In this document: positions 2,686 through 19,548 of the stretch, piece after piece | How the letters are laid out: the number at the start of each line of letters is the position of its first letter | Position numbering within the stretch: the stretch's first letter is position 1 | Origin: Treponema sp. | Lineage (GTDB): Bacteria; Spirochaetota; Spirochaetia; Treponematales; Breznakiellaceae | Direction: 5' to 3' | NCBI GenBank assembly: GCA_009784775.1 | Contig: WQXQ01000014.1 | Span: forward strand, 1-33,283 | DNA: 33,283 bases | Notes under the pieces: model-generated | The model's input: only the letters and a program-made list of their open reading frames with translations | Databases searched by the model: none | What the model was told of the DNA's origin: nothing | Translations under genes and position numbers: made by a program

Positions 2686-3104
2686 AACTCATTACTGTTT
2701 CTGTATTGTTTTTTGTTGCCACATGGATTCCTGCCCAGACTGTTGATCCCTTTTCCGGATCAACCTGGCAGGGCAGGATTTCCTACAGGGACGCACATAA
2801 TCGCCCCCGTGCCGACAGGTATGAATTAATTCTGGTTAAAAACGGAACCTGCATTGTAACGGTTACCACAACCGTAAACAGAAAAGAACTGTTTCAGGAC
2901 GGCGACGGCTTATGGTCTTTTGACCGCAATATTTTCCGGCTTGAATGTGAATTCTTCGATGCGGCAATAGAACATCTGCCGTTTATTGACTGGAAAAGCG
3001 TATATGAACTTGATGAACATCAAAACTCATTTACCGTGCTCATCAAGCCATATCCAGAGGCAAAATCGAATATCAATGTACGATTCAACCGAATTGATGA
3101 CTAA
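2679..3104 (+). CDS. small secreted protein, third gene of the LPP20/CsgG operon
   Basis: The protein has 141 residues, with a signal peptide ending in IPAQ and a mature part of about 120 residues made of short predicted strands (WQGRISY, YELILVKNGTCIVTVT, WSFDRNIFRLECEF). That pattern is like a small lipocalin-type or other beta-barrel fold, but I do not recognise a family. There is one Cys pair candidate in the mature chain (Cys near VKNGTC and LEC). It overlaps the CsgG-like gene by 7 bases, so it is co-translated. All three operon proteins have the same style of signal cleavage site, which suggests they act together in the periplasm or outer membrane. Confidence 0.75.
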   Translation: MVKLITVSVLFFVATWIPAQTVDPFSGSTWQGRISYRDAHNRPRADRYELILVKNGTCIVTVTTTVNRKELFQDGDGLWSFDRNIFRLECEFFDAAIEHLPFIDWKSVYELDEHQNSFTVLIKPYPEAKSNINVRFNRIDD

Positions 3105-3154
3105 ATTGCGAAGGGTCCAGCCAGTATTTTTCTTTTGCAAACACTAAAGCAAAA

Positions 3155-3172
3155 CGCCATATTTCGCCATAT
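3155..3172. promoter_or_regulatory. two CGCCATAT direct repeats spaced one helical turn
   Basis: CGCCATAT occurs at 3155-3162 and 3165-3172, 10 bases apart, about 55 bases upstream of the extended -10 box of the next gene. That spacing is compatible with an activator site. I see no matching known operator. The rest of the 3105-3254 gap holds only the promoter. Confidence 0.25.
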
Positions 3173-3225
3173 ATAAGGTACAGGCTTGTGTGTGCATATT
3201 TTTACTGTGCACATTGCTGAAAGTC

Positions 3226-3234
3226 TGATATAAT
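3226..3234 (+). promoter_or_regulatory. extended -10 promoter of the coiled-coil nuclease-like gene
   Basis: TGATATAAT is a perfect TGn plus TATAAT extended -10 element. It lies about 20 bases upstream of the start codon. The -35 region is poor, as is usual for extended -10 promoters. Confidence 0.55.
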
Positions 3235-3254
3235 TATTACAGGAGATGAGCATC

Positions 3255-3923
3255 ATGGAAACGATCGTAATCGACAGACCGCCCCCAACCGGCGAAGGCC
3301 TCACCTTTGAAAAAGTGTGGGCAATGTTCCAGGAATCCGACCGCCGAAGGGAAGAAGAGCGGCAAAAAGAGGCCGCCGAACGGCGGAAAGAATATGAAGA
3401 ACGGCAGAAAGAGGCTGAAGAACGGCAGAAAGAGTATGACGAGCGGCAGAAAAAACTGGACAAGAAGTTTGATGATCTGAACCAGCAAATGGGCGGGTTG
3501 CACAACAGCTTTGGGGAGCTCGCGGAACATCTGGTGGCACCCGGTATTGCCGAAAAATTTAACGAAATGGGATGTCATTTTGACGGTATTGCCTCCGGCG
3601 GGTATGAAATTCTGGATGACCAGAAAAAAGTCATAGCAGAAGTAGATATACTGCTGGAAAACGGCGACTGCATTATGGCGGTGGAAGTAAAGTCCAAACT
3701 GAAGGAAAAAGATATTGAACACCACGAAAAACGGCTGCAAATATTACGGGATCACCGGAACAAAAAGCGCGATACCCGCAAAATATACGGCGCAATAGCC
3801 TGTGCGATATGGAGTGCCGGAGAAAAACAAGCCGCGATCGATGCCGGTTTCTACGTGCTGGAACAGACCGGCGACACCATGCAAATGGCTATCCCAGACA
3901 ATTTTGTCCCCAAAGAATGGTAA
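3255..3923 (+). CDS. coiled-coil protein with PD-(D/E)XK nuclease-like domain (DUF3782-type)
   Basis: This is a 222-residue cytoplasmic protein. Residues 34-75 are six uninterrupted seven-residue units (EERQKEA and variants), a highly charged coiled coil. The C-terminal domain has the nuclease-fold signature: Asp131 in EVDILL, then Glu144 and Lys146 in VEVKSK, the E-x-K motif on the core strand. Family members of this type are widespread, multi-copy and poorly understood in treponemes. AGGAG at 3241-3245 touches an ATG at 3246 directly but lies 9 bases before the ATG at 3255, so 3255 is the start. The gene stands alone with its own promoter. The substrate is unknown; the catalytic triad looks intact. 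Confidence 0.8.
   Translation: METIVIDRPPPTGEGLTFEKVWAMFQESDRRREEERQKEAAERRKEYEERQKEAEERQKEYDERQKKLDKKFDDLNQQMGGLHNSFGELAEHLVAPGIAEKFNEMGCHFDGIASGGYEILDDQKKVIAEVDILLENGDCIMAVEVKSKLKEKDIEHHEKRLQILRDHRNKKRDTRKIYGAIACAIWSAGEKQAAIDAGFYVLEQTGDTMQMAIPDNFVPKEW
3354..3479 (+). repeat. 21-bp coding repeats giving six coiled-coil heptads
   Basis: Six imperfect 21-base units encode EERQKEA, AERRKEY, EERQKEA, EERQKEY, DERQKKL and DKKFDDL. Unit length equals exactly two coiled-coil turns, so copy-number change would lengthen or shorten the stalk without breaking the frame. Confidence 0.85.
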
Positions 3924-3973
3924 GACACAAGTGCCAGAGCGTATACTGTGTCTGTTTGTGGTTAACTCCATAA

Positions 3974-4003
3974 TTGTATAAAAAAGCATTTTTATGGTAT
4001 AAT
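3974..4003 (+). promoter_or_regulatory. rubrerythrin promoter with palindromic spacer
   Basis: The extended -10 element is TGGTATAAT (3995-4003). A weak -35 (TTGTAT, 3974-3979) lies 18 bases upstream of the hexamer. The spacer holds an 18-base near-palindrome at 3978-3995 (16 of 18 positions symmetric, ATAAAAA / TTTTTAT arms), a candidate operator for a redox-responsive repressor. It does not match the PerR box that I know. Confidence 0.5.
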
Positions 4004-4037
4004 AACGGTATTCTATTACTATTCAAGGAGAGTATGT

Positions 4038-4577
4038 ATGAAAAAATGGGTTTGTTCAGTGTGTGGGTATGTACATACGGGCGATCAGCCGCCGGCACAA
4101 TGCCCCCAGTGCAAGGTTCCGGCAGAAAAGTTCAAGGAACAACAGGCGGGCGCGGCGTATGCGGCTGAACATATGGTCGGCGTTGCCAAAGGCGTTGACG
4201 CAGACATTGTAAAGGATCTGCAGGCGCACTTTAACGGCGAATGCTGCGAAGTGGGAATGTATCTGGCAATGGCCCGGGTTGCCGAACGCGAAGGCTACCC
4301 CGAAATCGCCGATGCGTTTCAGCGTTATGCCCTTGAAGAAGCGGAACACGCGGCTAAATTTGCAGAATTGCTCGGCGAAGTGATCAGCGACAGCACCAAG
4401 AAAAACCTTGAACTGCGCATTGAAGCCGAATTTGGCGCCTGTGCCGGCAAAACCGACATTGCCAAGCGGGCAAAAGAAAAAGGCCTTGACGCGATCCACG
4501 ACACCGTTCACGAAATGGCCCGCGACGAAGCCCGCCACTGCGCCGGTTTCAAAGGCCTGTTAAAGAGACACTTCTAG
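4038..4577 (+). CDS. rubredoxin-first (reverse) rubrerythrin / NADH peroxidase type
   Basis: The protein has 179 residues. The N-terminal rubredoxin-like iron site uses Cys6, Cys9, Cys22 and Cys25 (CSVCG...CPQC). It is followed by a ferritin-like four-helix domain with the di-iron ligands: Glu in NGECCEVGMY, the EEAEH motif, a Glu-rich third helix (LELRIEAEFG) and DEARH near the C terminus. This domain order is the reverse of classic rubrerythrin. The family reduces hydrogen peroxide in the cytoplasm using electrons from NADH or a partner reductase, protecting anaerobes from oxygen. AAGGAG (4025-4030) is 7 bases before the ATG. It is a single gene with its own promoter and no reductase beside it. 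Confidence 0.93.
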   Translation: MKKWVCSVCGYVHTGDQPPAQCPQCKVPAEKFKEQQAGAAYAAEHMVGVAKGVDADIVKDLQAHFNGECCEVGMYLAMARVAEREGYPEIADAFQRYALEEAEHAAKFAELLGEVISDSTKKNLELRIEAEFGACAGKTDIAKRAKEKGLDAIHDTVHEMARDEARHCAGFKGLLKRHF

Positions 4578-4590
4578 TTTCTATTCTCAA

Positions 4591-4737
4591 TTTTTCACAC
4601 GGAGAACACGGAGTTCCACGGAGACACGGAGAAAAGAGAAGAAAAGGATAATGAAAAGAGTCGCGTAATTTCAAATGCGCAACTCCTCCTTCTTTCCCTC
4701 CGTGCCTTTGTGAACCCCGTGCCTCTGTGTGCAAAAA
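4591..4737. repeat. long imperfect hairpin element, copy 1
   Basis: The left arm (from 4591) is built of repeated CACGGAG words. The right arm (to 4737) is its imperfect reverse complement (CCGTGCC and CTGTGTG words), with a short AT-rich centre. It fills the 179-base gap between the convergent rubrerythrin and mgtC genes. A second element built of the same words lies at 12838-12918. The position suits a bidirectional transcription end, but the element resembles a dispersed repeat family more than a simple terminator. Confidence 0.75.
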
Positions 4738-4756
4738 TACGAAAAAAATCCCCAGA

Positions 4757-5443
4757 TTAATATTTTTCTTTGATTTCGACTTTTGCTACGTGGTCGGCGA
4801 TTTTGAATGCTTTTGCCAGGGCGGCGACATCAAGTGATTCCGGAATACTGACAAGGAATCGAACTTTGGTTTTTTTCTTCTTGCCCGTGTTTTGTTTTAC
4901 ATCCGGGGACTGGGTCTGCAGCCCAAAGCTCATCAATATATCCTGCGCCGCCTTTATGTCAGGAGAAAATCCGCTTTTGTAGCGCAATTCAAGCACCTTA
5001 TTCCTTACCGTGGGGAAAAACCGTTTTTCCAGGCGGTCAAGAAATATCAATGTAACCAAACCGATAACTTCCGCAGCGGCAGCAGCGATATACATTCCCG
5101 CGCCAAGCACAAGCCCCACCGCGGCAACAAGCCAGAGAGAAGCGGCAGTAGTCAAACCTTTAACGTTATTGCCCAGACGGACTATTGCGCCCGCGCCAAG
5201 AAAACCGATGCCGGAAACAACCTGCGCGGCTATTCTGCCGGGATCACCAATTCTGCCGCCAACCTGCTGCGGTATCCAAATCGAGAGCAGCATAAGCAGC
5301 GTTGCCCCCAACGCGATAAGAATATGCGTCCTGAGACCCGCCACCTGATTGCGGCTTGAACGTTCAAATCCAATAATTGCTCCGGCGGCAAAACCAAGCC
5401 CAAGCCGTATCAGCATATCAATTTCAGTAATGTGATGGTGCAT
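4757..5443 (-). CDS. mgtC: MgtC/SapB-family membrane protein
   Basis: The 228-residue protein has about five hydrophobic helices in residues 5-140. The family signature is clear: GAIIGFERSSRNQVAGLRTH, then ILIALGATLLML, and GIGFLGAGAIV followed by GLTTAASLWL. A soluble C-terminal tail of about 80 residues resembles the ACT-like domain seen in many members. MgtC proteins sit in the inner membrane and are linked to growth at low magnesium and to regulation of ATP synthase or other membrane proteins; the biochemical function is debated. The ATG is 3 bases after the stop of the upstream gene, and AAGGAG lies inside that gene's last codons, so the two are translationally coupled. The symbol denotes the family. 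Confidence 0.9.
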   Translation of the reverse strand: MHHHITEIDMLIRLGLGFAAGAIIGFERSSRNQVAGLRTHILIALGATLLMLLSIWIPQQVGGRIGDPGRIAAQVVSGIGFLGAGAIVRLGNNVKGLTTAASLWLVAAVGLVLGAGMYIAAAAAEVIGLVTLIFLDRLEKRFFPTVRNKVLELRYKSGFSPDIKAAQDILMSFGLQTQSPDVKQNTGKKKKTKVRFLVSIPESLDVAALAKAFKIADHVAKVEIKEKY

Positions 5444-5446
5444 CTC

Positions 5447-6382
5447 TCAATACTCCTTTTTTATGCTTTCCAAATCAATATAATAAACATCCTTATGTTC
5501 CCTGTTTATGTATACATCAACGGTCTCTTTGTCCAACTGTATGTTTTCTATTTCTTTTTCCTTTAGATACTCACTATGAAATATCCTTCCGTCATATTCC
5601 GCTTCCAGCAGGCGCGGATGCCTTCTCCTTATCCGAACATTTACATCTTCAACAATGCCTGTTATATTTGCCTTAACCAATCTGCCTGTATGTCTGGCCT
5701 GTTGCTGCATTTTCTTTTTGTTGGTTTGTTTAGCCATTACTGTTATTGCCGCTGCTGTCATGAGTAAACCTATAGCGGCAAAGACAGCGCAAATAATTAC
5801 CAGCACCATAAGACTCCCTTCATAATCGACTTTTCCCATTATTCCTGCGCCTCCCATAAATACTGCAAACCCTGTAGATGTTATTCCTACAAGAAGCAGC
5901 ATGGGCGCAACCGTTATCAGCGGGTTTTTCATGGGGTCTTTTTTGGTTTCTTCTTTTACTACACTTTTTAAATCAACATAGTATTTTTTTGCATTATTAT
6001 TGTCTATGTATACATTAACGGTCTCATACTTTTCCGTTTGTCTTATATCGTCTTTTGTTATAATTTCACTAAGAAATACCATCCCGTTATGTTCCGCTTT
6101 CAGTTTATAATCTATATGCGTTCTTCCTTTACTTATCCATTTTTGTTCCGCAATGCCTGTTATTTTTGCCCTAACCAATCTGCCTGTTGTTACCAGTCTT
6201 TTACGCAGTATCTGTCTGACTCCTTCAGCGATGGTTAATATGCCCACAAGTATAAATAATCCCCCTACGCCTACAAGAGCAAACCTGTTGCTTTCCCCTT
6301 TATCCCAATCTGATATTCCTATTGCGAAAAAAAAGGTTCCCATTAACAAAAAAATAATTGCCACTACCAATCGTAATATCAT
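5447..6382 (-). CDS. membrane protein with internally duplicated domain (DUF3592-like)
   Basis: This 311-residue protein consists of two copies of the same module. Each copy has two hydrophobic helices (about 3-23 and 36-58; 158-180 and 190-215), then a soluble beta-rich domain with GRLVRAKITGI or GRLVKANITGI, and an ending like VNVYID...YYVDL or VDVYIN...YYIDL. The pattern resembles DUF3592-type membrane proteins, which usually have one copy. It is the promoter-proximal partner of mgtC, 3 bases apart. AAAGGAGC lies about 8 bases before the ATG. The function is unknown; coupling suggests that it works with or alongside MgtC in the membrane. Confidence 0.8.
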   Translation of the reverse strand: MILRLVVAIIFLLMGTFFFAIGISDWDKGESNRFALVGVGGLFILVGILTIAEGVRQILRKRLVTTGRLVRAKITGIAEQKWISKGRTHIDYKLKAEHNGMVFLSEIITKDDIRQTEKYETVNVYIDNNNAKKYYVDLKSVVKEETKKDPMKNPLITVAPMLLLVGITSTGFAVFMGGAGIMGKVDYEGSLMVLVIICAVFAAIGLLMTAAAITVMAKQTNKKKMQQQARHTGRLVKANITGIVEDVNVRIRRRHPRLLEAEYDGRIFHSEYLKEKEIENIQLDKETVDVYINREHKDVYYIDLESIKKEY

Positions 6383-6403
6383 TGTTTATTGCTCCTTTGT
6401 TAT

Positions 6404-6433
6404 ATAATCTCATACTTATTCGATTTTTGTCAA
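6404..6433 (-). promoter_or_regulatory. promoter of the DUF3592-like/mgtC pair
   Basis: On the minus strand a perfect TTGACA (6433-6428) is followed after 18 bases by GATTAT (6409-6404), 4 of 6 matches to the -10 consensus. It separates this pair from the upstream ligA gene on the same strand. Confidence 0.5.
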
Positions 6434-6461
6434 GCAAACGGAAAATCTTCAAATTGACGCG

Positions 6462-8456
6462 TTAAAACAACTCTCCCTGAACCGCCGGTGTTTTTTGAGA
6501 TTTGCTTGCTGGCTGGCCATCGCCTTTCTCCGCTTTGGCAAGCAGGACCAGGAATTGCTCTTCATCAATAATAGGTATGCCCAGCTCGCGGGCTTTTTTA
6601 TTTTTGCCGGAACCGGAGCCGGGATCGTTAGTGACCAGATAGGCAAGGTCTTTTACCACCGATGATTTGACCAATGCGCCCAGCAGCTTGATTTTCTCCT
6701 CGGCATGGCCGCGCTTCATGGCGGAAAGCTCGCCGGTAAAGCAAAAGGAAAGGCCGCGCAGGGGTTGGGCTCCATCAGGCGGAGGCGGGGCAATGCTGAT
6801 AATGTTCGCCTTCAGTACCGCATCCATTTCGGCGGCGGTTTCCCCAAGGCCGTCAACAATGACCCTGGCGGTAATTTCTCCCAGACCGTGAATGGCGGCA
6901 AGGTCTTCAATGGAGGCGGCGCGGATTTTTTCCAGAGTATTGAATCCGGCAACGGCAACTTTTTCCATGGTGGTTTCGGCGATGCCTTCAAGATCAAAGC
7001 CGGCGATAAAAGCGGCAAGGGAAAGTTCCCGCGGTGTTTGGATATGACGCACCACTTTTGCCGCGGAAAGTTCCCCCATGCGATCATATGCGGCAAGTTC
7101 TTCCGCACCAAGTGTATACAAATCGGCTATATGCCGCACCCGCTCTTTGTCAAAAAGCTGGCGCACCAATTTTTCACCTAACTCACGAATGTCCAATACC
7201 GCAATCCATTTTTCAAGGCGATGCAACAGACGTTTGGGACAGCCGGCATTGGGGCAGTACAGGCGGGTGCCTGCGTCCACCAGATCGGTACCGCAGGCAT
7301 TACATATAACGGGAATTTCGATTTCCTGTTCGTCATCGGCAATTTTGCCTGGAGCAAGGCCTTCAATTTTGGGGATAATTTCGCCGCGCTTTACCACCGA
7401 AACCGCCGAACCGATTTTCAGACCCAGAGCGCGGATCATGTCGGGATTGTTCAGGTTGGCCCGCTGCACGGTGGTTCCGGCAATGCGAACCGGATCAACA
7501 ATGCCAATGGGAGTATAGGTTGCACCGGACTCGCTCCATTCCACCTGCCTGAGTATGCTAAAAGCGGTTTCAAGCTCGAACTTAAAGGCAATTTGTTTTT
7601 CGGGCCGGGCGCGGCGCAAATCGGCCATGTCGGTGGCAATATCCTTCACCACCAGGCCGTCTATATCAAAGGGAAGTTTGTCCCGCATATTTGCCACTTT
7701 GTTACGGTACGCAATAACTGCTTCCGCATCATTGCACATGGTTACCACAGTGGTCTGGAAACCCTGTTTGCCAAGCCATTCCAGTTTTTGCGTCTCATCG
7801 GAAAAATAAAAATCGTCATCGTTTGCCGCAGCGTCATAGGTAATCATGTTGAGGTCTTCACAGCCGGAGCCGTCTTTGCGGCGCATGATGCCGTTCGCGG
7901 CATTGCGGCAATTGGCCTTGGTCTCATACTTTTCCCGCCACACAGTGCGGATCATTACTACTTCGCCGCGTACACCGCCGGAAAAGGGAAGACCCAGCTT
8001 GTCAGACACGCCTATCATGCGCCGGGCATTGGCGGTAATTTCATCGCCAATAATGCCATCGCCTCTGGTCACCGCCCGAACCAAAATGCCTTTTTCATAT
8101 TGCAGTTCAAGACTGGCCCCATCAAGTTTATACTGCACCAAAAATTGGGTTAGACCCTGTTTCTGCGCCCATGCGCGGAATTCTTCGGGGTTAGCAGCTT
8201 TATCCTGACTGCCCATGGGAATAATATGTTTAGCCTTGGGAAAACCATCAACACCGTGGGCGGCATCGCCGTGATGCGCAGCATCACTCCCCCCCCCCAC
8301 CCTTTTGATAACCGGGCTGTCGGGGGCAAGCGCCTTCAGTTCATCCCAAAGCAGATCAAATGCTTCATCAGCAATTTCCGCCTCACCATCATAATACGAT
8401 TTCTGGTACTGTGTTATCAGACGTTCAAGCGTTGTCTGCCGCCCCTCATTCCTCAT
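6462..8456 (-). CDS. ligA: NAD-dependent DNA ligase
   Basis: This 664-residue ligase seals nicks in replication and repair using NAD. In order it has: an N-terminal NMN-recognition part (YYDGEAEIADEAFDLLWDEL); the adenylation domain with the nucleotide-accepting Lys110 in KLDGAS; RGDG and GEVVM; KFELE; the OB part with VKRGEIIP; a zinc site (Cys385, Cys388, Cys401, Cys406); helix-hairpin-helix repeats; and a C-terminal BRCT domain from about 575. The sequence is divergent but all key motifs are present. Odd: residues 53-71 are a Gly/Ala/His-rich insertion between RVGG and FPK, encoded in part by a run of ten G. The start overlaps the trmB stop by 4 bases inside a 7-bp tandem repeat. It is the last gene of its operon. 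Confidence 0.95.
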   Translation of the reverse strand: MRNEGRQTTLERLITQYQKSYYDGEAEIADEAFDLLWDELKALAPDSPVIKRVGGGSDAAHHGDAAHGVDGFPKAKHIIPMGSQDKAANPEEFRAWAQKQGLTQFLVQYKLDGASLELQYEKGILVRAVTRGDGIIGDEITANARRMIGVSDKLGLPFSGGVRGEVVMIRTVWREKYETKANCRNAANGIMRRKDGSGCEDLNMITYDAAANDDDFYFSDETQKLEWLGKQGFQTTVVTMCNDAEAVIAYRNKVANMRDKLPFDIDGLVVKDIATDMADLRRARPEKQIAFKFELETAFSILRQVEWSESGATYTPIGIVDPVRIAGTTVQRANLNNPDMIRALGLKIGSAVSVVKRGEIIPKIEGLAPGKIADDEQEIEIPVICNACGTDLVDAGTRLYCPNAGCPKRLLHRLEKWIAVLDIRELGEKLVRQLFDKERVRHIADLYTLGAEELAAYDRMGELSAAKVVRHIQTPRELSLAAFIAGFDLEGIAETTMEKVAVAGFNTLEKIRAASIEDLAAIHGLGEITARVIVDGLGETAAEMDAVLKANIISIAPPPPDGAQPLRGLSFCFTGELSAMKRGHAEEKIKLLGALVKSSVVKDLAYLVTNDPGSGSGKNKKARELGIPIIDEEQFLVLLAKAEKGDGQPASKSQKTPAVQGELF
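8289..8298. repeat. G10 homopolymer inside ligA
   Basis: There are ten C on the plus strand, read as ten G in ligA (codons for Val-Gly-Gly-Gly at residues 53-56). Gain or loss of one base would frameshift this presumably essential gene upstream of its active site. Confidence 0.9.
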
Positions 8457-8471
8457 TCCTCATTCCTCATT
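8444..8471. repeat. 7-bp tandem repeat at the trmB/ligA junction
   Basis: There are four perfect copies of CCTCATT (minus strand AATGAGG). The array contains the last codons and stop of trmB, the ligA start codon, and repeated GAGG ribosome-binding words, one of which lies 8 bases before the used ATG. Confidence 0.95.
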
Positions 8472-9157
8472 TTTACAAATAGCAATTCCTTTACCTGATG
8501 ATTTTTTGCAAGTCCTTTTCGCTCAAAACTGGTGCGGGGCCGCCAGTCCTGCGGCGGAGCAAAATCAGCAGCAGAATTAACCAGACCTTCTGTTGCGCTT
8601 AACGCATCCAGCGCCCATTCGGCATATTGCTCCCAGTCGGTAGCCATATACAGATAGCCGCCCGGTTTCAGCCGGGACGCAAGGGTATCCGTAAAAGGCC
8701 GTTTGACCAGGCGCCGTTTGTGGTGCCGTTTTTTGGGCCAGGGATCGGGGAAAAAAAGATGTATCCCTTCCAGTGTATTGTGCGGAATCATTTTTTCCAA
8801 AACCGCAACCGCGTCATGTTCAATGATTCTGAGATTGACAAGCGATTGCCGTTCAATTTCCCAGAGGAGTTTGCCTATTCCCGGCCTGTGCACCTCAATG
8901 CCCAGATAATTTTTATCGGGATGCGCCGCGGCAATAATAGCCGTGGCCTCGCCCATGCCGAATCCAATCTCGATGGTAACCGGATTGTTATTGCCAAAAA
9001 CCACAGAAAAATCAAGCGGCCTGTTTTCAAAGGGAATGATTAATTGCCCTGCAAGGGAATCGTAGGAACGGCGCTGGGCGGCGGTTCCCCGTCCGGCCCG
9101 CAGTACATAACTTCGAATTGCAGCGGGAAAACCGCTTTTAACGGAGGGCGGTGACAT
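8453..9157 (-). CDS. trmB: tRNA (guanine-N7)-methyltransferase
   Basis: The protein has 234 residues and methylates N7 of guanine-46 in the tRNA variable loop using S-adenosylmethionine. The Rossmann-fold methyltransferase core starts at IEIGFGMGEA (SAM-binding glycines). The hallmark TrmB motif FPDPWPKKRHHKRR is intact and the later TDWEQYAEWAL motif also fits. The last six residues (MRNEE after VK) are encoded by a 7-bp repeat array. It overlaps the upstream lipoprotein gene by 20 bases and the ligA start by 4. No clear ribosome-binding site precedes the ATG, so translation probably depends on coupling to the upstream gene. Confidence 0.95.
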   Translation of the reverse strand: MSPPSVKSGFPAAIRSYVLRAGRGTAAQRRSYDSLAGQLIIPFENRPLDFSVVFGNNNPVTIEIGFGMGEATAIIAAAHPDKNYLGIEVHRPGIGKLLWEIERQSLVNLRIIEHDAVAVLEKMIPHNTLEGIHLFFPDPWPKKRHHKRRLVKRPFTDTLASRLKPGGYLYMATDWEQYAEWALDALSATEGLVNSAADFAPPQDWRPRTSFERKGLAKNHQVKELLFVKMRNEE

Positions 9158-9794
9158 CGGTATAGGCCGACATAAAATATTCGGCGTCTTCTGCCCAAAG
9201 CGCCGCCGTCCGGGCCGGAGCCGGAATGTTCAGATCATTCACCGAGCCGCTCAGCGTATCAAGTCTTGCGGTAAAAACATATTTACCCTGTTCATCATAG
9301 CAGACCAGGCGATTCACCGGATATGATGAAGTCACCGTATAGCTGCCCCCGCTTATCTCCAGATTGGGAAAAGGAAACCGGGGTTCTTCCGGCGCGTCAA
9401 AACTAAAATTACGTTCGGATTTTTCTCCGCCCTTGTTCACCAACACAGCCCGATACTGGCCCCTTGGCAGAATCTCATCCTCACCGATTGCGATACTTCT
9501 TGATCCGATCCATGTTTTTTCTTCATGGGTATAACTTATCCAGTCATCGCTTTTGATATGCCAGCGCAGCTGTTCGCGGTCATGGTACAGGTACAGGTCT
9601 TCCAGATTTTCAAGGCCGTCATCGTCTTCGGGAATAATGAAAAAAGAAAAATACTCCTGCGGTTTATTTTTATCCTGATAATAGACCAGTTGTATAAAAC
9701 CAAACGCAATTTTAGGCTCCGCCCGCGAACAGCCGGAAAACACCACCGCCAAAAAAAGCAAAACCAATAATGTTTTTTGTACTATCATGCGCAT
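9138..9794 (-). CDS. probable lipoprotein, function unknown
   Basis: This 218-residue protein has a signal peptide ending in a lipobox (VFSGC, lipidated Cys22). The mature part is rich in aromatic residues (FGFIQLVYY, EQLRWHIKSDDWISYT) and looks beta-stranded, like a substrate-binding or Ig-type fold, with GQYRAVLVNKGGEKSERNFSFD near the middle. I recognise no family. AGGAGG stands 7 bases before the ATG. It lies 11 bases after the preceding lipoprotein gene and overlaps trmB by 20. Conserved context with housekeeping genes suggests a chromosomal core lipoprotein rather than a recent acquisition. Confidence 0.8.
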   Translation of the reverse strand: MRMIVQKTLLVLLFLAVVFSGCSRAEPKIAFGFIQLVYYQDKNKPQEYFSFFIIPEDDDGLENLEDLYLYHDREQLRWHIKSDDWISYTHEEKTWIGSRSIAIGEDEILPRGQYRAVLVNKGGEKSERNFSFDAPEEPRFPFPNLEISGGSYTVTSSYPVNRLVCYDEQGKYVFTARLDTLSGSVNDLNIPAPARTAALWAEDAEYFMSAYTDVTALR

Positions 9795-9805: not shown

Positions 9806-10456
9806 CTACCAGCTCATCTCTACCGTCAGGCCTTCTTCAAGGGCAAGCAGGTCTCCCAGGCCAATGACAGCCAAAACTTTTTTTCCCTGAGAAACCATTT
9901 GCGCAAACGAAACAGACGAGGGAATTGCCGTAAGGCTTGCGTTTTTGGGAGCGCTCAGGCTGACGCTTATGGTATAACCCGCGGCAATTTCCTGCAGCAG
10001 GGCAAGCAGGTCATCATCGGTAATGACGGCCGCTTCATCCAGCAGAACAAGGCGTAAGCTATTTTTTCCGTTTTCCTGCGTGAAAGACACGCCGGCGCCG
10101 GTATTGTCCAAAAAGGCCAACAGGGCGCCGGTATTATTAAATTCCAGCGTAACGTTGGTAACCAGATCTTTGCCGCCAAAGACATTCGATACACTTTTTG
10201 CAGAAAAAGCCGAAAGGCGCAGACCGGGAATTCTTGCGACACTTCGTTCAAAATCCGCCTTGCCAACAGGAATAGCCGGCCAGCGTTCATTGCCGTCCAG
10301 CCTGCCCATGGACTCCAGTACTTGCGAAACCCGGTACTCAAGGGCAATTTTTCCGGAACCATCGGCCCGTATGTGTATATCTGCCGAAACCCCAAGGCAG
10401 GAATTGAACGCTAAAGCCGCACAGAATAATAGCAACAGCCATTTAATAGTCTTCAT
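9806..10456 (-). CDS. probable lipoprotein, LppM-like domain
   Basis: The protein has 216 residues. The signal peptide ends with AFNSC, giving Cys20 as the lipid anchor. It is followed by a beta-strand pattern (ADIHIRADGSGKIALEYRVS) typical of LppM-type lipoprotein domains, and a C-terminal acidic and hydrophobic part (VLAVIGLGDLLALEEGL). GGAGG lies 7 bases before the ATG at 10456 and only 4 before an upstream TTG, so the ATG is chosen. The ATG shares one base with the TGA stop of the DUF503 gene (TGATG), so translation is coupled. The function is not known; the LppM assignment is from pattern only. Confidence 0.78.
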   Translation of the reverse strand: MKTIKWLLLLFCAALAFNSCLGVSADIHIRADGSGKIALEYRVSQVLESMGRLDGNERWPAIPVGKADFERSVARIPGLRLSAFSAKSVSNVFGGKDLVTNVTLEFNNTGALLAFLDNTGAGVSFTQENGKNSLRLVLLDEAAVITDDDLLALLQEIAAGYTISVSLSAPKNASLTAIPSSVSFAQMVSQGKKVLAVIGLGDLLALEEGLTVEMSW

Positions 10457-10743
10457 CAAAATTCCTCCGAATGGATACTCATGTCCTGTATGCGAACCGG
10501 AACTTCATTTTCAATCATCGCAAATGCTTTTTGTAATACGGTCTCGCCAAAAACCCGCGAGTTGGAAACCAGCGCCCCGCCTATCTGGGCAAAGGACAAC
10601 GAATCCTGCAAATCAACTTCGGCGGCGCTCATGTGGAAACGGCGCTGCAGCTTGTCCTTTACCGATTTGACAATGCGCCGTTTGTCCTTAAGGCTGCAAA
10701 CATCGGGCAATTCAAACAGCATCTGAATCATTGATACAATCAT
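10456..10743 (-). CDS. DUF503 (YlxP-like) small protein
   Basis: The 95-residue cytoplasmic protein has the DUF503 pattern: an opening strand [13 protein letters not shown], then the conserved SLKDKRRIVKSVKDKLQRRF, the strand with AEVDLQDSL and IGGALVSN, and a C-terminal helix and strand. In other bacteria (YlxP) this gene often sits beside infB and rbfA and is thought to act in ribosome or RNA metabolism, but no function is firmly established. Here it is between lipoprotein genes. Its ATG overlaps the upstream TPR gene stop by one base (TAATG). Confidence 0.88.
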   Translation of the reverse strand: MIVSMIQMLFELPDVCSLKDKRRIVKSVKDKLQRRFHMSAAEVDLQDSLSFAQIGGALVSNSRVFGETVLQKAFAMIENEVPVRIQDMSIHSEEF

Positions 10744-12924: not shown

Positions 12925-15900
12925 CTAGTAGCGCAGGTCGATTACCAGGGCTTCCGGCCGGTCAGCAACCAATGTTGTTGATTGTTCCCATATATCGGAA
13001 TAGCAGAAACTGTAGGTTAAACCATATGCGGATATTTCGTGCATGTATTTTGCATAGTGGTTCATCCTTATGTTGCCATTAAAGCCGGACTGATAATAGT
13101 AGTTGGATGGCACACTTGTCTGCTGCCCATGAGGAATAATTCGTCCATTCGCATCCAGCGGACCCCATGGATTGGTATTACCCGCTACGCTAGGCAGATG
13201 AGCAACACCTCTGGTAAATGCCGCGCAAATCTGCGCCTGTGCAGCCAGGCTGAATTCTCCAACGCCATTGGAGCTGTCGTCCAGCATTTCCCTGCCTTCC
13301 AGTACCGCCTGGGTGTTTGGTTTTCTGATAATAGCCTCTCCGGAGTTAAACAGAGCCGAGGAATTCGAGGTCCTTAATACCAGAACTTCTTCGGTATACG
13401 TTTGCGCACTATGATTCCTTCGTATATTATTTCTGGTTTCTATCTGCCCTCTATATAGGTGTCCCTCGCTGTTTACAATCGTTACCCCGTTAGTACCTGC
13501 GGCTCTCCACATGTCCCAAACCGCATCAATGTATGGCTGGAAATAGTTCCCATATCGCCGATCGGTGTTAAAGTCCATTTTACAGGGCGCTTCGATTCTA
13601 AGCGGCGTTTTCAGATGCCAGAATTCCGGCGGAACCCTTGCTTCCCATTGCCCGAAGATTTCGCTTCTGGGTAAAAATTCACCCGCCGTTAGATCTACCC
13701 GCTGTCCGCCTGGTGTCCTTCCAAGCACGCGGGCGATAACCGGGAAGCTGAAGAAGTCAACCCTGGTGGTATTGGCAAATAAACACCCGTCATTATCCCT
13801 TAAGGAAAACTCAAAATACTCATGATAGACATTGTAACCGGGGATAGTAGGATTGTTCAGATCCGGTCCGCCAAATCCGTTGACATTATTGCCGCTGCCA
13901 TGGAATTGTACCAATATGGGCTCGCCATAACTGATAAACAATCTTCCCGAATGAACCCTGTCTATGTAGACATATCGCGCTTCCGCCAGCGTAAATGAGA
14001 CATCCGCAAACCTGCCCGTTTCGGTATTGGGATGGGGCGGAATATGAATACTATTCATATTGGTATTTGCCCGAACCAGCGTACCGTTGTTTTCCGGACT
14101 CACAAAATGCCAGTTATTACCAGCGGCAGTCACTCGTCCCAAGATGACAATGTGAATCTGGTCATCCCTCCATGCTCCCTTGGTCAGGTTATTGAACTGG
14201 AAGAACAATCTGCCACGACCAGTAGGATCATCCGGAATACTGATGTCCCTTATCGGCAGCGGAAGACCATCGACAACTTCAATCAGAACAAAGGTTGAAG
14301 TAATGGTAAGATTGTTGCCGGGCATATCAAATGTTCTGGTAGCGCCGGCGTCATTACCGGTTCCGGTAAGGCCTGTTACGTTGGGACTAAACGTGATCGA
14401 TTGCAGCGCATAACCGGGACTTGGGTTGATCGTTACGGTTACTGATGAACCTGCCGTTGCAGCACCCGGACCACCCACGCCGCCGTTGGCGCCGTTGGTA
14501 TAGGTAATGGTATTCCCGGTGGCCGCCGCCGCTACTGAAACGGTTCTTGAAGATGTCACATTGGCGAAGCCGGATTGGGCTGACGCCGCTATTACAGTGA
14601 TATTGGTTCCAATTGCAACGCTTGTATTCACGCTTAAAATACCGTTTGCATTAATGCTCGCGCCGGCAACCGCAGGATTAATCGACCAGGTAACGCCTTC
14701 CGTAGCGCCGCCGGTAGCGGCAACATCCGCAACAAAGGTCATCGTGGAACCCCGCTGTATCGAAGCACCCGCCGCCGGAGTCGTAATGGTTACACTGGAT
14801 ACATTCGGCCCGGTTATCTGAACAGTTCTTTCCCCCCATATAGCGGTATTAAACACGGAAGTCGCTCTAATAGTAGCATTGCCAACCGTCGCGTTATTCG
14901 CAACAGTCAAAATGCCGCTTGTCGCATTCATGGTTAAGCCGGTAACGGCGGGCGTAACCGACCATGTAACAGATTCCGAAGCGCCGCCGTTAGCGATAAC
15001 GCCTGCGGCAAACGCCTGGGTTGTGCCTCGCGGTACCTGAGCATTAGCCTCCGGGAATGTAATGGTAACGTTGGTTACGCCAGGAGTCGCGCTCGACACA
15101 ATCTGAACGGTTCTTTCTCCAAATACACCCTGGGAAGTTGCCCTTATAGTGGCGTTACCAAGCGTTGCGTTATTCGCAACGTTCAAAACGCCGTCCGCGT
15201 TAATGGTTACGCCGGTAACGGCAGGGTTAACCGACCAAGTTACATTTGTCGACGAAACACCGTTAATGAGCGCTATCGCGCCAAATTGCAGGGTGGTATT
15301 GCGTAATACCTGCTGCCCGTTAGCCACCGGAGTCGTAATGGTAACCGTGTTTGTGGGGGGAGTAATTATCTGAACGGTTCTTTCCCCCCATACACTGGCA
15401 TTAAACGTGGAAGTCGCTCTTACCGTGAGGTTACCCAGTGTTGCGCCGGCTGTAAGGGTTACCACACCGGTTGTTGTGTCAATGGAGGCACCCGTAACGG
15501 CAGTGGGAATTGACCAGGTAACCGTTGTCGATGCGCCGCCGCTTGCGGTAACACTCGCGGTAAACTGATGGGTAGTGCCTCGCGCTATCTGCGCGCCCGC
15601 CGCATGAGAATTAATGGTGACACCGGTTACGGCGGGTGTTTCAGCCGCCACTATATTAACGATTCGTTCCCCAATTACGGTGGCAAAGCCGTCCTGGGCG
15701 GAAGCTGCTCTAATAGTAGCGTTACCCAGCGTTGCGGTATTCGAAACGGTCAAAAGACCGCTTGCGTTAATGGTTACGCCAGTAACGGCAGGCGTCACTG
15801 ACCAGGTCACATTTTGCGTAGCGCCGCCGGAAGCGACAACCGTTGCCGCAAATTGCAGGGTGGTGTTTCGCGCCACCTGCTGACCATTCGCTGCCGGGGT

Positions 15901-18900
15901 TGTTATAGTCACGCTGGTTACTTCGGGCGTCGGCGGAGTAACACTAATAAGTTCGATGTCAGAAATAAAGAAGTTGATACCACCCCTAACGGCAACTATT
16001 CTCCAGCCGGTTATAACAACGGAGCTTTGGGCAGCCAGGTTATTGCCTCCGTTGGTGAAATTCGCCAGCGGAATCTGAATATTCGTCCAGCCGCTGTCAT
16101 TATTGGCAGGCTGAGCGCCGGCTCCGCCTGCCAAAGTGCGGGTAACCGTAAATTGCGGGGCTGTCCATGCGGTAAAACCTGCAGTAGCACTGGTATGATT
16201 GCCGGTTCGCAGTTCAAAGGTAAGCGTATCCGCGCCGGTCAGCGTATCAGGACCTCGCGTATACACCCACAGCGAAACGGTTGCATGAGAATCTTTATAT
16301 TGCGTAACATTATTCACAAAGCTAGCGTTATTCCAGTTGGTTCTGGCAATGCTTAAATTGTCACCGCTGCCGCCAAGCTGCGCAGCGTTTCGTACGCCGC
16401 CGTGAGTCGTCGAGTTACCGGCGCCAGGTTGATTAGGATACACACCTGCCCACCATTCGTTACCGGTCATTACAAAACCCGCGTTGGTAACTACGGCAGG
16501 CATGGCTCCGCCTCCGCCGTTATTAATTGCACCGGCATCACTGAAAGCATCAATTACTATGGATGCTGGTACCGATCCTCCCGTTACCGAAACAGTTGCG
16601 GTGCCGAATACGCCGGTAAAGCCGGCCGCGCTGGATGTCGCCCTGACGGTGATGTTGGTTCCGGCGGCAACGCCTGCCCCAACGGTCAAGAGACCGCCTG
16701 CAACACTCGTGCCGGTAACAGCGGGATTTATCGACCAGGTAACGCCCGTTCCGGCGCCGTGCACCGCGTCAACATTCGCGGTAAACTGCAAAGTGGCGCC
16801 CGCCGCTACTGTTGCAGCACTGCCCGCCGCAGTAACGGTAATGCCGTTAACCTGCGGTACGTTAATGGTTTTTTCGCCGAATACACCCGTAAAGCCGGTC
16901 ACATTGGATGTCGCTCTGACGGTTATGCTGGCTTGAGTCTCATTCGAGGATATTCTTAAAAGACCGGCCGCGCTGATACTTGTTTGATTATTGGCAGGAC
17001 CAGTAGTGAAATGGCCGGTACTGGAAATTGACCAGACAACCGTTTGCGCCGCGCCGCCAGTAACCGTAACATTCGCGGTGAATTGCTCGGTATTGGTACC
17101 CCGCGCTACGACGGCGTTCGGTGAAGTAACGGTGATACCGGTTACCGCCGCTGCCGCTGTTACCGAAACAGTTGCCGCGCCGAATACATCGGTAAAATCA
17201 GCCGCGCTGGATGTCGCCCTGACGGTGATATTGGTTCCGGCTGCGACGCCCGCCCCAACGGTCAACAGGCCGCTTGCGTTCACGCTCGTACCGGTAACCG
17301 CAGGATTAACCGACCAGGTAACACCGGTTCCGGCGCCGTTCACCGCGTCAACATTCGCGTTAAACTGCAAAGTGGCGCCCGGCGCTACTGTGGCGGCACC
17401 GCCCGCTGCAGTAACGGTAATGCCGTTAACTACCGGCAGCAGTACCGTAATGGTTTTCTCGCCGTATTGGGTATTGTCGGCGGTGGATGTCGCCCGTACG
17501 GTTACGCTGGGCTGAGTTTCATTCGAGGATATTCTCAAAAGACCGGTCGCGCTGATACTGGTGCGATTATTGGCAGGACCAGTAATAAAATGACCAGTAC
17601 TGGAAATTGACCAGGTAACGGTTTCGACAGCGCCGCCAAACTGGGCGACAACCGCGCTAAACTGTTCGGTATTCGTACCCCGCGCCACAGTGGCGTTCGG
17701 AGAAGTTACCGTAACGCCGGTTACTCCCTGTATATTAATAACTCGTTCACCGAATACATCCGTAAAGTTCGCCACGGTTGATGTCGCCCGTACGGTTATG
17801 CTGGCTGCGGTTTCATCCGCCGCAACGGTCAACAGACCGCTGCCGTTGATGGTCGTTCCGGCGCTGGTGTGGCCGGTTCTTGTCCAGGTAACGGTTTGCG
17901 CCGCGCCGCCGGACACGTTGACATTTGCGTTAAACTGCAGGGTATTGCCCCGCAATAACGACAGAACGCCGCCGACAGCGGTAACGGTAATGTTATGTAC
18001 GGTTGGCGTATTTTCTTCTGATAATACTACGGTAATGGTTCTTGTATTGGCGGTTGTAAGACCGGGCTCGGCGGTTTGTGCTCTAATGGTGAGCACCTTA
18101 CCGTTGACCTCATTGGGGTCAACAATCAAGTTGCCGTTTGCATTAATGCTCGTGCCCGCTATGGGGTTGCCGTCCGAAATTGACCAGGTAACGTTCTGCG
18201 TGGCTCCGCCTGCCGCGGTGACAGCGGCGTTAAACTGCTGGGAAGAGCCTTGTTGCACCGTTGTATGGTTGCCCTCCGCAGTAATGGCAATGGCAGTTAC
18301 CTGCGGTATGTTTACGGTCAATTCGCCGAATACGCCGGTAAAGCCCGCCGCGCTGGATGCCGCTCTGACAGTGATGCTGGACTGGGTTTCACTCGCCCCA
18401 ACGGTTAAAAGCCCGCTCGCGCTGATGCTGGTACCAACAACATGGCCGGTACTGGTAATTGACCAGTTTACGCCTGTTCCGGCGCCGTGCACCACATCGA
18501 CATTCGCATTAAACTGCAGGGTATTCGTATTTCTGGGTACAAACGCAGCGCCGCCGGCCGCAGTAACGGTAATGCCGTTAACCTGTGGTACGTTAATGGT
18601 TTTTTCGCCGTATACACCGGTAAAATCAGGCACGCTGGAAGTCGCTCTGACGGTTATACTGGCTTGGGTTTCATTCGCCCCAACGGTTAAAAGCCCGCTC
18701 GCGCTGATGCTGGTACCAACATGACCGGTACTGGAAATTGACCAGGTAACCGTTTGCGCCGCGCCGCCAGTCACGGTAACATTCGCCGTGAATTGCTCGG
18801 TATTGGTGCCCCGCGCTACGGTGGCGTTCGGTGAAGTAACGGTTATATCGGTTACTGCCGCTGCCTCTGTTACCGAAACAGTTGCCGCGCCGAATACATC

Positions 18901-19548
18901 GGTAAAATCAGCCTCGCTGGAAGTTGCCCTGACAGTGATAGTGGTTCCGGCTGCGACGCCCGCCCCAACGGTCAACAGGCCGCTTGCGTTCACGCTCGCG
19001 CCGGCAACCGCAGGATTAACCGACCAGGTAACGCCCGTTCCGGCGCTGCCAACAACGTCAACATCCGCGTTAAACTGCAAAGTGGTGCCCTGCACTACCG
19101 ATGTGGCATCGGCGGTAACGGTAACACTGCGTACCGTTGGGGTGGGCGCTATTACCATAACGGTTTCTTCCCCAAATACATCCGTAAAACCGGACTGCAG
19201 AGAGTGCGCTTTAACAGTGATGGAGGTGCCGACCGGTACAGCCGCGCCAACACTCAAAAGACCATTATTTAAATCAATGGTTACTCCACTGACTGGAGGA
19301 TCAATCGACCAGGAGACGTCTTCCGTAGCGCCGTTATCGGCGGCAACAGTCTCATAAAACTGCAAGGTATCACCCTGCATTACTTCAGTGGCATCATTAT
19401 CAGCGCTCACCAAAATAGAGTGCACCACCGGACCATTGTAACTGGATGTGGATCCGACACCGTCTTTACAAGTGGTAAACAGCGCGAAGCTGCCTATCAT
19501 TAACAGAAAAGTAATCGCGGCAATGCCGGATACATACGTCTTTTTCAT
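12925..19548 (-). CDS. giant Ig-repeat surface protein with C-terminal GH64-like beta-1,3-glucanase domain
   Basis: The protein has 2207 residues. An N-terminal signal peptide ends near FTTC (Cys27, a loose spirochaete-type lipobox). Ten BIG2-type Ig-like repeats of about 90-100 residues run to about residue 990. A 209-residue beta-sandwich region follows (995-1203, carbohydrate-binding-like), then five more Ig repeats to about 1677, a short InlB-type bacterial repeat (1679-1757), and a 450-residue C-terminal region (1758-2207). I read the last region as GH64, a beta-1,3-glucanase of the thaumatin-like superfamily; the probable acid pair is Glu1913 in YFEFSL and Asp1931 in TRVDFFSFP. The likely role is a long surface stalk presenting a glucan-degrading enzyme. 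GGGGG stands 8 bases before the ATG. It is a single-gene transcription unit. GH64 assignment is from pattern memory and needs a profile search. Confidence 0.88.
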   Translation of the reverse strand: MKKTYVSGIAAITFLLMIGSFALFTTCKDGVGSTSSYNGPVVHSILVSADNDATEVMQGDTLQFYETVAADNGATEDVSWSIDPPVSGVTIDLNNGLLSVGAAVPVGTSITVKAHSLQSGFTDVFGEETVMVIAPTPTVRSVTVTADATSVVQGTTLQFNADVDVVGSAGTGVTWSVNPAVAGASVNASGLLTVGAGVAAGTTITVRATSSEADFTDVFGAATVSVTEAAAVTDITVTSPNATVARGTNTEQFTANVTVTGGAAQTVTWSISSTGHVGTSISASGLLTVGANETQASITVRATSSVPDFTGVYGEKTINVPQVNGITVTAAGGAAFVPRNTNTLQFNANVDVVHGAGTGVNWSITSTGHVVGTSISASGLLTVGASETQSSITVRAASSAAGFTGVFGELTVNIPQVTAIAITAEGNHTTVQQGSSQQFNAAVTAAGGATQNVTWSISDGNPIAGTSINANGNLIVDPNEVNGKVLTIRAQTAEPGLTTANTRTITVVLSEENTPTVHNITVTAVGGVLSLLRGNTLQFNANVNVSGGAAQTVTWTRTGHTSAGTTINGSGLLTVAADETAASITVRATSTVANFTDVFGERVINIQGVTGVTVTSPNATVARGTNTEQFSAVVAQFGGAVETVTWSISSTGHFITGPANNRTSISATGLLRISSNETQPSVTVRATSTADNTQYGEKTITVLLPVVNGITVTAAGGAATVAPGATLQFNANVDAVNGAGTGVTWSVNPAVTGTSVNASGLLTVGAGVAAGTNITVRATSSAADFTDVFGAATVSVTAAAAVTGITVTSPNAVVARGTNTEQFTANVTVTGGAAQTVVWSISSTGHFTTGPANNQTSISAAGLLRISSNETQASITVRATSNVTGFTGVFGEKTINVPQVNGITVTAAGSAATVAAGATLQFTANVDAVHGAGTGVTWSINPAVTGTSVAGGLLTVGAGVAAGTNITVRATSSAAGFTGVFGTATVSVTGGSVPASIVIDAFSDAGAINNGGGGAMPAVVTNAGFVMTGNEWWAGVYPNQPGAGNSTTHGGVRNAAQLGGSGDNLSIARTNWNNASFVNNVTQYKDSHATVSLWVYTRGPDTLTGADTLTFELRTGNHTSATAGFTAWTAPQFTVTRTLAGGAGAQPANNDSGWTNIQIPLANFTNGGNNLAAQSSVVITGWRIVAVRGGINFFISDIELISVTPPTPEVTSVTITTPAANGQQVARNTTLQFAATVVASGGATQNVTWSVTPAVTGVTINASGLLTVSNTATLGNATIRAASAQDGFATVIGERIVNIVAAETPAVTGVTINSHAAGAQIARGTTHQFTASVTASGGASTTVTWSIPTAVTGASIDTTTGVVTLTAGATLGNLTVRATSTFNASVWGERTVQIITPPTNTVTITTPVANGQQVLRNTTLQFGAIALINGVSSTNVTWSVNPAVTGVTINADGVLNVANNATLGNATIRATSQGVFGERTVQIVSSATPGVTNVTITFPEANAQVPRGTTQAFAAGVIANGGASESVTWSVTPAVTGLTMNATSGILTVANNATVGNATIRATSVFNTAIWGERTVQITGPNVSSVTITTPAAGASIQRGSTMTFVADVAATGGATEGVTWSINPAVAGASINANGILSVNTSVAIGTNITVIAASAQSGFANVTSSRTVSVAAAATGNTITYTNGANGGVGGPGAATAGSSVTVTINPSPGYALQSITFSPNVTGLTGTGNDAGATRTFDMPGNNLTITSTFVLIEVVDGLPLPIRDISIPDDPTGRGRLFFQFNNLTKGAWRDDQIHIVILGRVTAAGNNWHFVSPENNGTLVRANTNMNSIHIPPHPNTETGRFADVSFTLAEARYVYIDRVHSGRLFISYGEPILVQFHGSGNNVNGFGGPDLNNPTIPGYNVYHEYFEFSLRDNDGCLFANTTRVDFFSFPVIARVLGRTPGGQRVDLTAGEFLPRSEIFGQWEARVPPEFWHLKTPLRIEAPCKMDFNTDRRYGNYFQPYIDAVWDMWRAAGTNGVTIVNSEGHLYRGQIETRNNIRRNHSAQTYTEEVLVLRTSNSSALFNSGEAIIRKPNTQAVLEGREMLDDSSNGVGEFSLAAQAQICAAFTRGVAHLPSVAGNTNPWGPLDANGRIIPHGQQTSVPSNYYYQSGFNGNIRMNHYAKYMHEISAYGLTYSFCYSDIWEQSTTLVADRPEALVIDLRY
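12928..14277 (-). other. GH64-like catalytic domain of the giant protein
   Basis: Residues 1758-2207. Family-like landmarks in order are: LPLPIRDISIPDD opening; RYVYIDRVHSGRLFISYGEP; YFEFSL; TRVDFFSFPVIARVLG; YFQPYIDAVWDMW; AAQAQICAAFTRGVAHLP; YYYQSG; and NHYAKYMHEISAYGLTYSF with CYSDIW near the end. The order and spacing match the laminaripentaose-producing beta-1,3-glucanases as I remember them. Those act on laminarin, curdlan and fungal cell-wall glucan. Confidence 0.7.
14518..19428 (-). repeat. array of 15 Ig-like (BIG2-type) coding repeats
   Basis: Fifteen units share the pattern V-x-V-T, a variable turn, G-T-x-x-Q-F-x-A-x-V, V-T-W-S-I/V, G-L-L-T-V and I-T-V-R-A-T-S. Two subtypes alternate over much of the first block: one with TAAGGAATV and GAGTGVTWSVNPAV, the other with TSPNATVARGTNTEQF and WSISSTGH. 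The array is interrupted at 15940-16566 by the carbohydrate-binding-like module. Bases 17161-17340 and 18871-19050 are nearly identical (about 13 differences in 180), 1710 bases apart. Confidence 0.9.
15940..16566 (-). other. carbohydrate-binding-like beta-sandwich module in the giant protein
   Basis: Residues 995-1203 differ from the Ig repeats around them. They open with ASIVIDAFSDAG and contain TVSLWVYTRGPD, TLTFELRTGNH and a closing FFISDIELISV. That pattern of strands with a final D-I-E-L-I is typical of galactose-binding-like or CBM-type jelly rolls that follow sugar-binding enzymes. The family cannot be named from sequence alone. Confidence 0.5.

Follow-up and report, generated by a model that had tools for sequence, protein, structure and literature searches.

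Enzymes of family GH64 hydrolyse beta-1,3-glucan through a direct-displacement mechanism in which a Glu serves as the acid and an Asp as the base. Structures are known for the laminaripentaose-producing enzyme (LPHase) of Streptomyces matensis (3gd0) and for the enzymes of Paenibacillus barengoltzii (5h9x) and Clostridium beijerinckii (5h4e), and the catalytic pair of LPHase is Glu154/Asp170 (PMC4758615). The one paper found for GH64 and Treponema names the family among those not observed, and the main text of the two Breznakiellaceae papers searched (including PMC11481507) makes no mention of it. Among the genomes sampled in this study, GH64 was present in 18 of 393 genomes of the phylum, mostly in Treponema, and in four of 200 genomes of Breznakiellaceae; the family was assigned through a GH64 locus of the same family (L002), which showed 90.8% DNA identity to a Gracilinema caldarium MAG. 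Typical spirochaetal GH64 proteins are 440-940 aa long, ricin-B or Big_2 modules being frequent among them, and those with complete N-termini begin with lipoprotein-like signal peptides. In the betaproteobacterial Silvimonas, Amantichitinum and Paraburkholderia (loci L022-L026 and L055), a C-terminal GH64 domain is found in proteins of 2370-2874 aa. The enzyme kind is therefore known and widespread in spirochaetes, and a large Ig-bearing GH64 protein has precedents. The earlier note on the locus presented here had proposed a new way to attack glucan, which is not supported, GH64 lipoproteins being frequent in Treponema and present in Gracilinema; the novelty of an Ig-stalked GH64 is likewise weakened by the Ig-bearing giants of Silvimonas and Paraburkholderia.

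The gene studied here lies on the minus strand at positions 12925-19548 of the window, i.e., the whole stretch of 33,283 nt that was analysed. It is a single intact ORF of 2207 aa with zero internal stops, which encodes a lipoprotein-like signal, an Ig-repeat stalk with a jelly-roll-like module and a GH64 domain. The last 450 residues (aa 1758-2207, positions 12928-14277, minus strand) are a GH64 domain, and the predicted fold agrees with this. Pfam PF16483 (Glyco_hydro_64) matched aa 1781-2204 with E 2.4e-43 (149.2 bits, the cut-off being 27), and phmmer recovered six chains from the PDB (best E 1.7e-33), each of them annotated as GH64 or as a beta-1,3-glucanase; NCBIfam gave no match for the domain. 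An AlphaFold model of the domain, built from 30 aligned rows, had a mean pLDDT of 69.9 and a pTM of 0.75, with pLDDT below 70 in about half of the model. It matched GH64 structures at Z 25-37 overall (5h4e, 37.2; 5h9x, 32.9; the laminaripentaose-producing LPHase 3gd0, 29.1), the next matches being thaumatin-like proteins at Z of about 10-11, and the Foldseek results were consistent with the GH64 matches. The GH64 assignment of the earlier note is thus confirmed by profile, PDB sequences and modelled fold alike, and its motifs and residue numbers were all correct in the ORF translation (YFEFSL, 1911-1916; TRVDFFSFP, 1928-1936; YFQPYIDAVW, 2002-2011; NHYAKYMHE, 2163-2171; CYSDIW, 2182-2187; E at residue 1913 and D at residue 1931).

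The domain is divergent. It is 30-35% identical to most relatives (mostly 28-35% to the spirochaetal and betaproteobacterial groups), it contains extra insertions, and its terminal branch in the tree is long (2.25). A single-sequence scan of the genome contigs detected zero close relatives; the alignment-based query for GH64 recovered 36 loci. Descent together with the other spirochaetal GH64s was considered and not supported, as the branch is long, no close kin is supported and the placement is unsure.

The candidate catalytic acids named in the earlier note stand. Glu1913 (codon 13810-13812, minus strand) and Asp1931 (codon 13756-13758, minus strand) are invariant in 30 of 30 rows of the GH64 alignment and align with Glu154 and Asp170 of LPHase, and they are therefore kept as the candidate general acid and the candidate general base, respectively. 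The residue aligned to Glu1913 is Glu in 5h9x and alanine in 5h9y. His2170 and the conserved NTT..D stretch are also retained in the 30-row alignment. However, residue 2184 is a Ser where the other 29 rows all have D, and Thr156, Asn158 and Trp163 of the +5 subsite of LPHase are replaced by Ser1915, Arg1917 and Phe1924, the columns of Asn158 and Trp163 being variable among the other GH64 rows too. Because the three +5-subsite residues differ, the size of the products could not be predicted, and in view of these changes and of Ser2184, endo-beta-1,3-glucanase is the safe name while "laminaripentaose-producing" is not established. The same substitutions, the long branch and a stalk architecture that would equally fit an adhesin are what could be expected if the protein had kept the GH64 fold, had lost or altered its catalysis and now served as a beta-glucan-binding surface adhesin by means of its thaumatin-like fold. 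This is regarded as improbable, since both catalytic acids, the NTT..D stretch and His2170 have been retained and since the eight GH16, the GH55 and the five GH3 proteins of the genome point to genuine hydrolysis of glucan. A working glucanase is the preferred reading of the domain.

The Ig stalk reported in the earlier note was also verified. Big_2 (PF02368) Ig-like repeats were matched in Pfam with E 6e-20, repeats are spaced about 280 nt apart in the DNA, and 15 V-x-W-S/T core motifs mark 15 Big_2 repeats, of which ten form the proximal stalk (16564-19431, minus strand; cores at aa 78-936) and five the distal stalk (14521-15930, minus strand; V-x-W-S cores at aa 1247-1619). The distal stalk is linked to the enzyme by a divergent InlB-B-like repeat (aa 1677-1757; 14278-14520, minus strand), which was not called by Pfam and matched the Flg_new_2-rich part of a GH16 protein on contig C77 of the same genome (BLASTP E 1e-7). 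At the N-terminus (19468-19548, minus strand) there is a signal peptide with a putative and atypical lipobox, Cys27 following ALFTT (TT-C). Near-identical signal peptides, ending in LLTGC and LFLGC, are found in a tandem pair of Big_2-GH16 proteins on contig C4 of this genome, and for this reason the protein is likely to be an exported lipoprotein, the lipid anchor being putative.

Between the two parts of the stalk, aa 994-1206 (15931-16569, minus strand) form a distinct unit of 213 aa, described as jelly-roll-like from a judgement of its strand pattern by eye. A sugar-binding-like module had been proposed earlier; its existence as a unit is borne out, but zero matches were found in Pfam, NCBIfam and PDB, a profile search against PDB also giving no match (best E 0.55), and a single-sequence AlphaFold model was unusable (pLDDT 38). 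The GH16 protein of contig C77, 1284 aa long, contains the same module (E 2e-9), as does a small lipoprotein from a genus-mate, and a carbohydrate-binding role is plausible because of this recurrence. It is thus treated as a candidate carbohydrate-binding module.

The repeats of the stalk could possibly mislead an assembly. The Ig repeats reach 93% identity across 300 nt, and the genome is a draft of 153 contigs with 1.8% contamination, so an unrelated GH64 might have been fused onto an Ig stalk through the repeats, or the contig might be a contaminant. We judge either event very improbable. The gene does not contain any exact repeat of 60 nt or longer, and unique sequence joins the GH64 part to the remainder of the gene; the GC content is even (50.2 in the window and 48.7 in the GH64 part); and the genome encodes further proteins with the signal peptide and modules of this one. 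Moreover, the genes flanking the GH64 gene are syntenic in four genus-mates (46-78% identical), and within this conserved synteny the GH57 gene beside it shares 61-73% identity with its counterparts in the four closest genus-mates, which assigns the contig to the Treponema sp. genome. Contamination is unlikely given the synteny, the even GC and the modules common to several contigs. The protein is accordingly taken as a genuine spirochaetal one, as the earlier note had assumed. Immediately next to the gene lie GH57, Rnf-type and housekeeping genes, so it does not belong to a PUL-like glucan locus. Elsewhere in the window, positions 5447-6382 (minus strand) gave a weak match, below the cut-off, to a TdeIII-type restriction endonuclease, and two adjacent ORFs of 217-218 aa (9138-9794 and 9806-10459, minus strand) were without a Pfam match.

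The enzymes that could accompany the GH64 protein are encoded elsewhere in the genome. GH16 was matched eight times, each of the eight proteins carrying the ExDx(x)E motif of that family, and the two that were checked are both laminarinase-like (E 1.5e-37 and 3.6e-32); five GH3 proteins are present as well. On contig C4, locus L081 (G000:C4:43000-53848) can be regarded as a beta-1,3-glucanase cluster from its gene content: all on the minus strand, two Big_2-GH16 lipoproteins of 1123 and 909 aa (ORFs 2924-6292 and 6463-9189) stand in tandem, adjoined by a GH55-like protein of 764 aa (ORF 504-2795) that matched SacteLam55A (4pew) with E 1.5e-106. The C77 protein (locus L108, G000:C77:5000-12322, ORF 2726-6577, plus strand) combines GH16 with eight InlB-B-like repeats and the module of the aa 994-1206 type. 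This complement of beta-1,3-glucan enzymes is unusually large, and genus-mates are largely devoid of them: GH64 was found in none of 39 and GH16 in five, with at most three per genome and none in the other 34, and as many of these genomes are incomplete, each single absence is weak evidence while the sum of the absences is not. The GH64 gene as a trait of the genus was accordingly rejected, the genus-mates lacking both GH64 and a large GH16 set. This enzyme context strengthens the glucan-attack reading, and the most fitting interpretation of the stalked GH64 is as part of a surface-displayed beta-1,3-glucan system specific to this lineage. In the same genome, further large lipoprotein-like proteins of 1000-1880 aa with Ig, YDG, InlB-like or F5/8-type parts were seen at loci L079, L080, L082, L083 and L085. 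A separate protein of 1077 aa (locus L109, G000:C3:16000-24000, ORF 4658-7888, minus strand), directly upstream of a GH16 gene, had by eye a glycosidase-like TIM-barrel region and an outer-membrane-barrel-like C-terminus, and was without a match in Pfam, NCBIfam and PDB.

The reading preferred here, with a probability of roughly 0.8, is that of an exported, probably outer-membrane-anchored lipoprotein in which a GH64 endo-beta-1,3-glucanase tips a stalk of 15 Ig repeats with a candidate glucan-binding module in mid-stalk. This reading builds on the homology and fold of the GH64 domain, the conservation of its acidic pair, the repeats of the stalk and the enzymes that accompany it in the genome. 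The lipid anchor would sit in the outer membrane, and the protein would presumably be exposed at the cell surface. An Ig domain measures about 4 nm, so the stalk may hold the enzyme some tens of nm off the cell, a reach that would let it act on insoluble or particle-bound glucan, and the module part-way along could help to grip this glucan. With Glu1913 as the acid and Asp1931 as the base, the GH64 domain would then cleave beta-1,3-glucan in a direct-displacement reaction, and the genome's GH16, GH55 and GH3 enzymes could trim the released oligosaccharides further.

Fungal cell walls, callose and laminarin should all be possible sources of the natural substrate. The earlier emphasis was on fungal or algal glucan, and a working GH64 glucanase directed instead at plant callose or a bacterial curdlan-like glucan is given slightly less than even odds. 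According to PMC11481507, Breznakiellaceae include termite-gut lineages living on lignocellulose, which would suit such a target, and GH64 and GH55 act on beta-1,3-glucan whatever its source; the present results fit any beta-1,3-glucan source alike. This alternative is compatible with the anchored, stalked glucanase proposed above, which leaves the source open. The family of the organism suggests that it may live in a termite gut or one like it. A further proposal, tentative and placed clearly below even odds, is that the species is a specialist on beta-1,3-glucan (fungal wall or callose) in a genus largely without such enzymes, that an Ig-stalked GH64/GH16 surface array grips and digests particles, and that aa 994-1206 represent a new beta-glucan-binding family. 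Termite-gut Breznakiellaceae have been described as hemicellulose degraders (PMC11481507), and GH64, GH55 and eight GH16 in one species of the family would suggest a beta-1,3-glucan niche for spirochaetes, possibly on fungal biomass or callose. Stalked lipoproteins would offer a testable mechanism for the attachment to and digestion of particles, with aa 994-1206 as a candidate new binding module.

Compared with the described systems, what stands out is the stalk, together with the lineage-specific set of beta-1,3-glucan enzymes; the GH64 enzyme kind itself is known. The protein resembles the enzymes of 3gd0, 5h9x and 5h4e in fold (Z 29-37), sequence family and the catalytic Glu and Asp, but differs in its extra insertions, the altered +5-subsite residues and an N-terminal stalk of 1757 residues. 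With the Treponema and Gracilinema GH64 lipoproteins (e.g., L027 and L036) it shares the lipoprotein-like N-terminus, the C-terminal GH64 and accessory modules; those proteins, however, have 440-940 aa and ricin-B or one Big_2 module instead of 15, and their GH64 domains, 30-35% identical to the one studied here, are not close kin in the tree. The betaproteobacterial giants are similar in exceeding 2300 aa and in having Ig domains and a C-terminal GH64, whereas the two that were scanned carry an N-terminal GH2, F5/8-type C domains and Ig domains of the I-set type rather than Big_2. The tandem Big_2-GH16 lipoproteins of the same genome agree in the near-identical signal peptide, Big_2 and a C-terminal beta-glucanase, and differ in having GH16 instead of GH64 and in their length of 909 and 1123 aa. 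The length of the stalk, the order of the modules and the form of a lipoprotein with 15 Big_2 repeats are new among the sampled loci, and the new architecture combines a putative lipid anchor, 15 Big_2 repeats, an unmatched jelly-roll-like module, an InlB-like repeat and a divergent GH64 domain.
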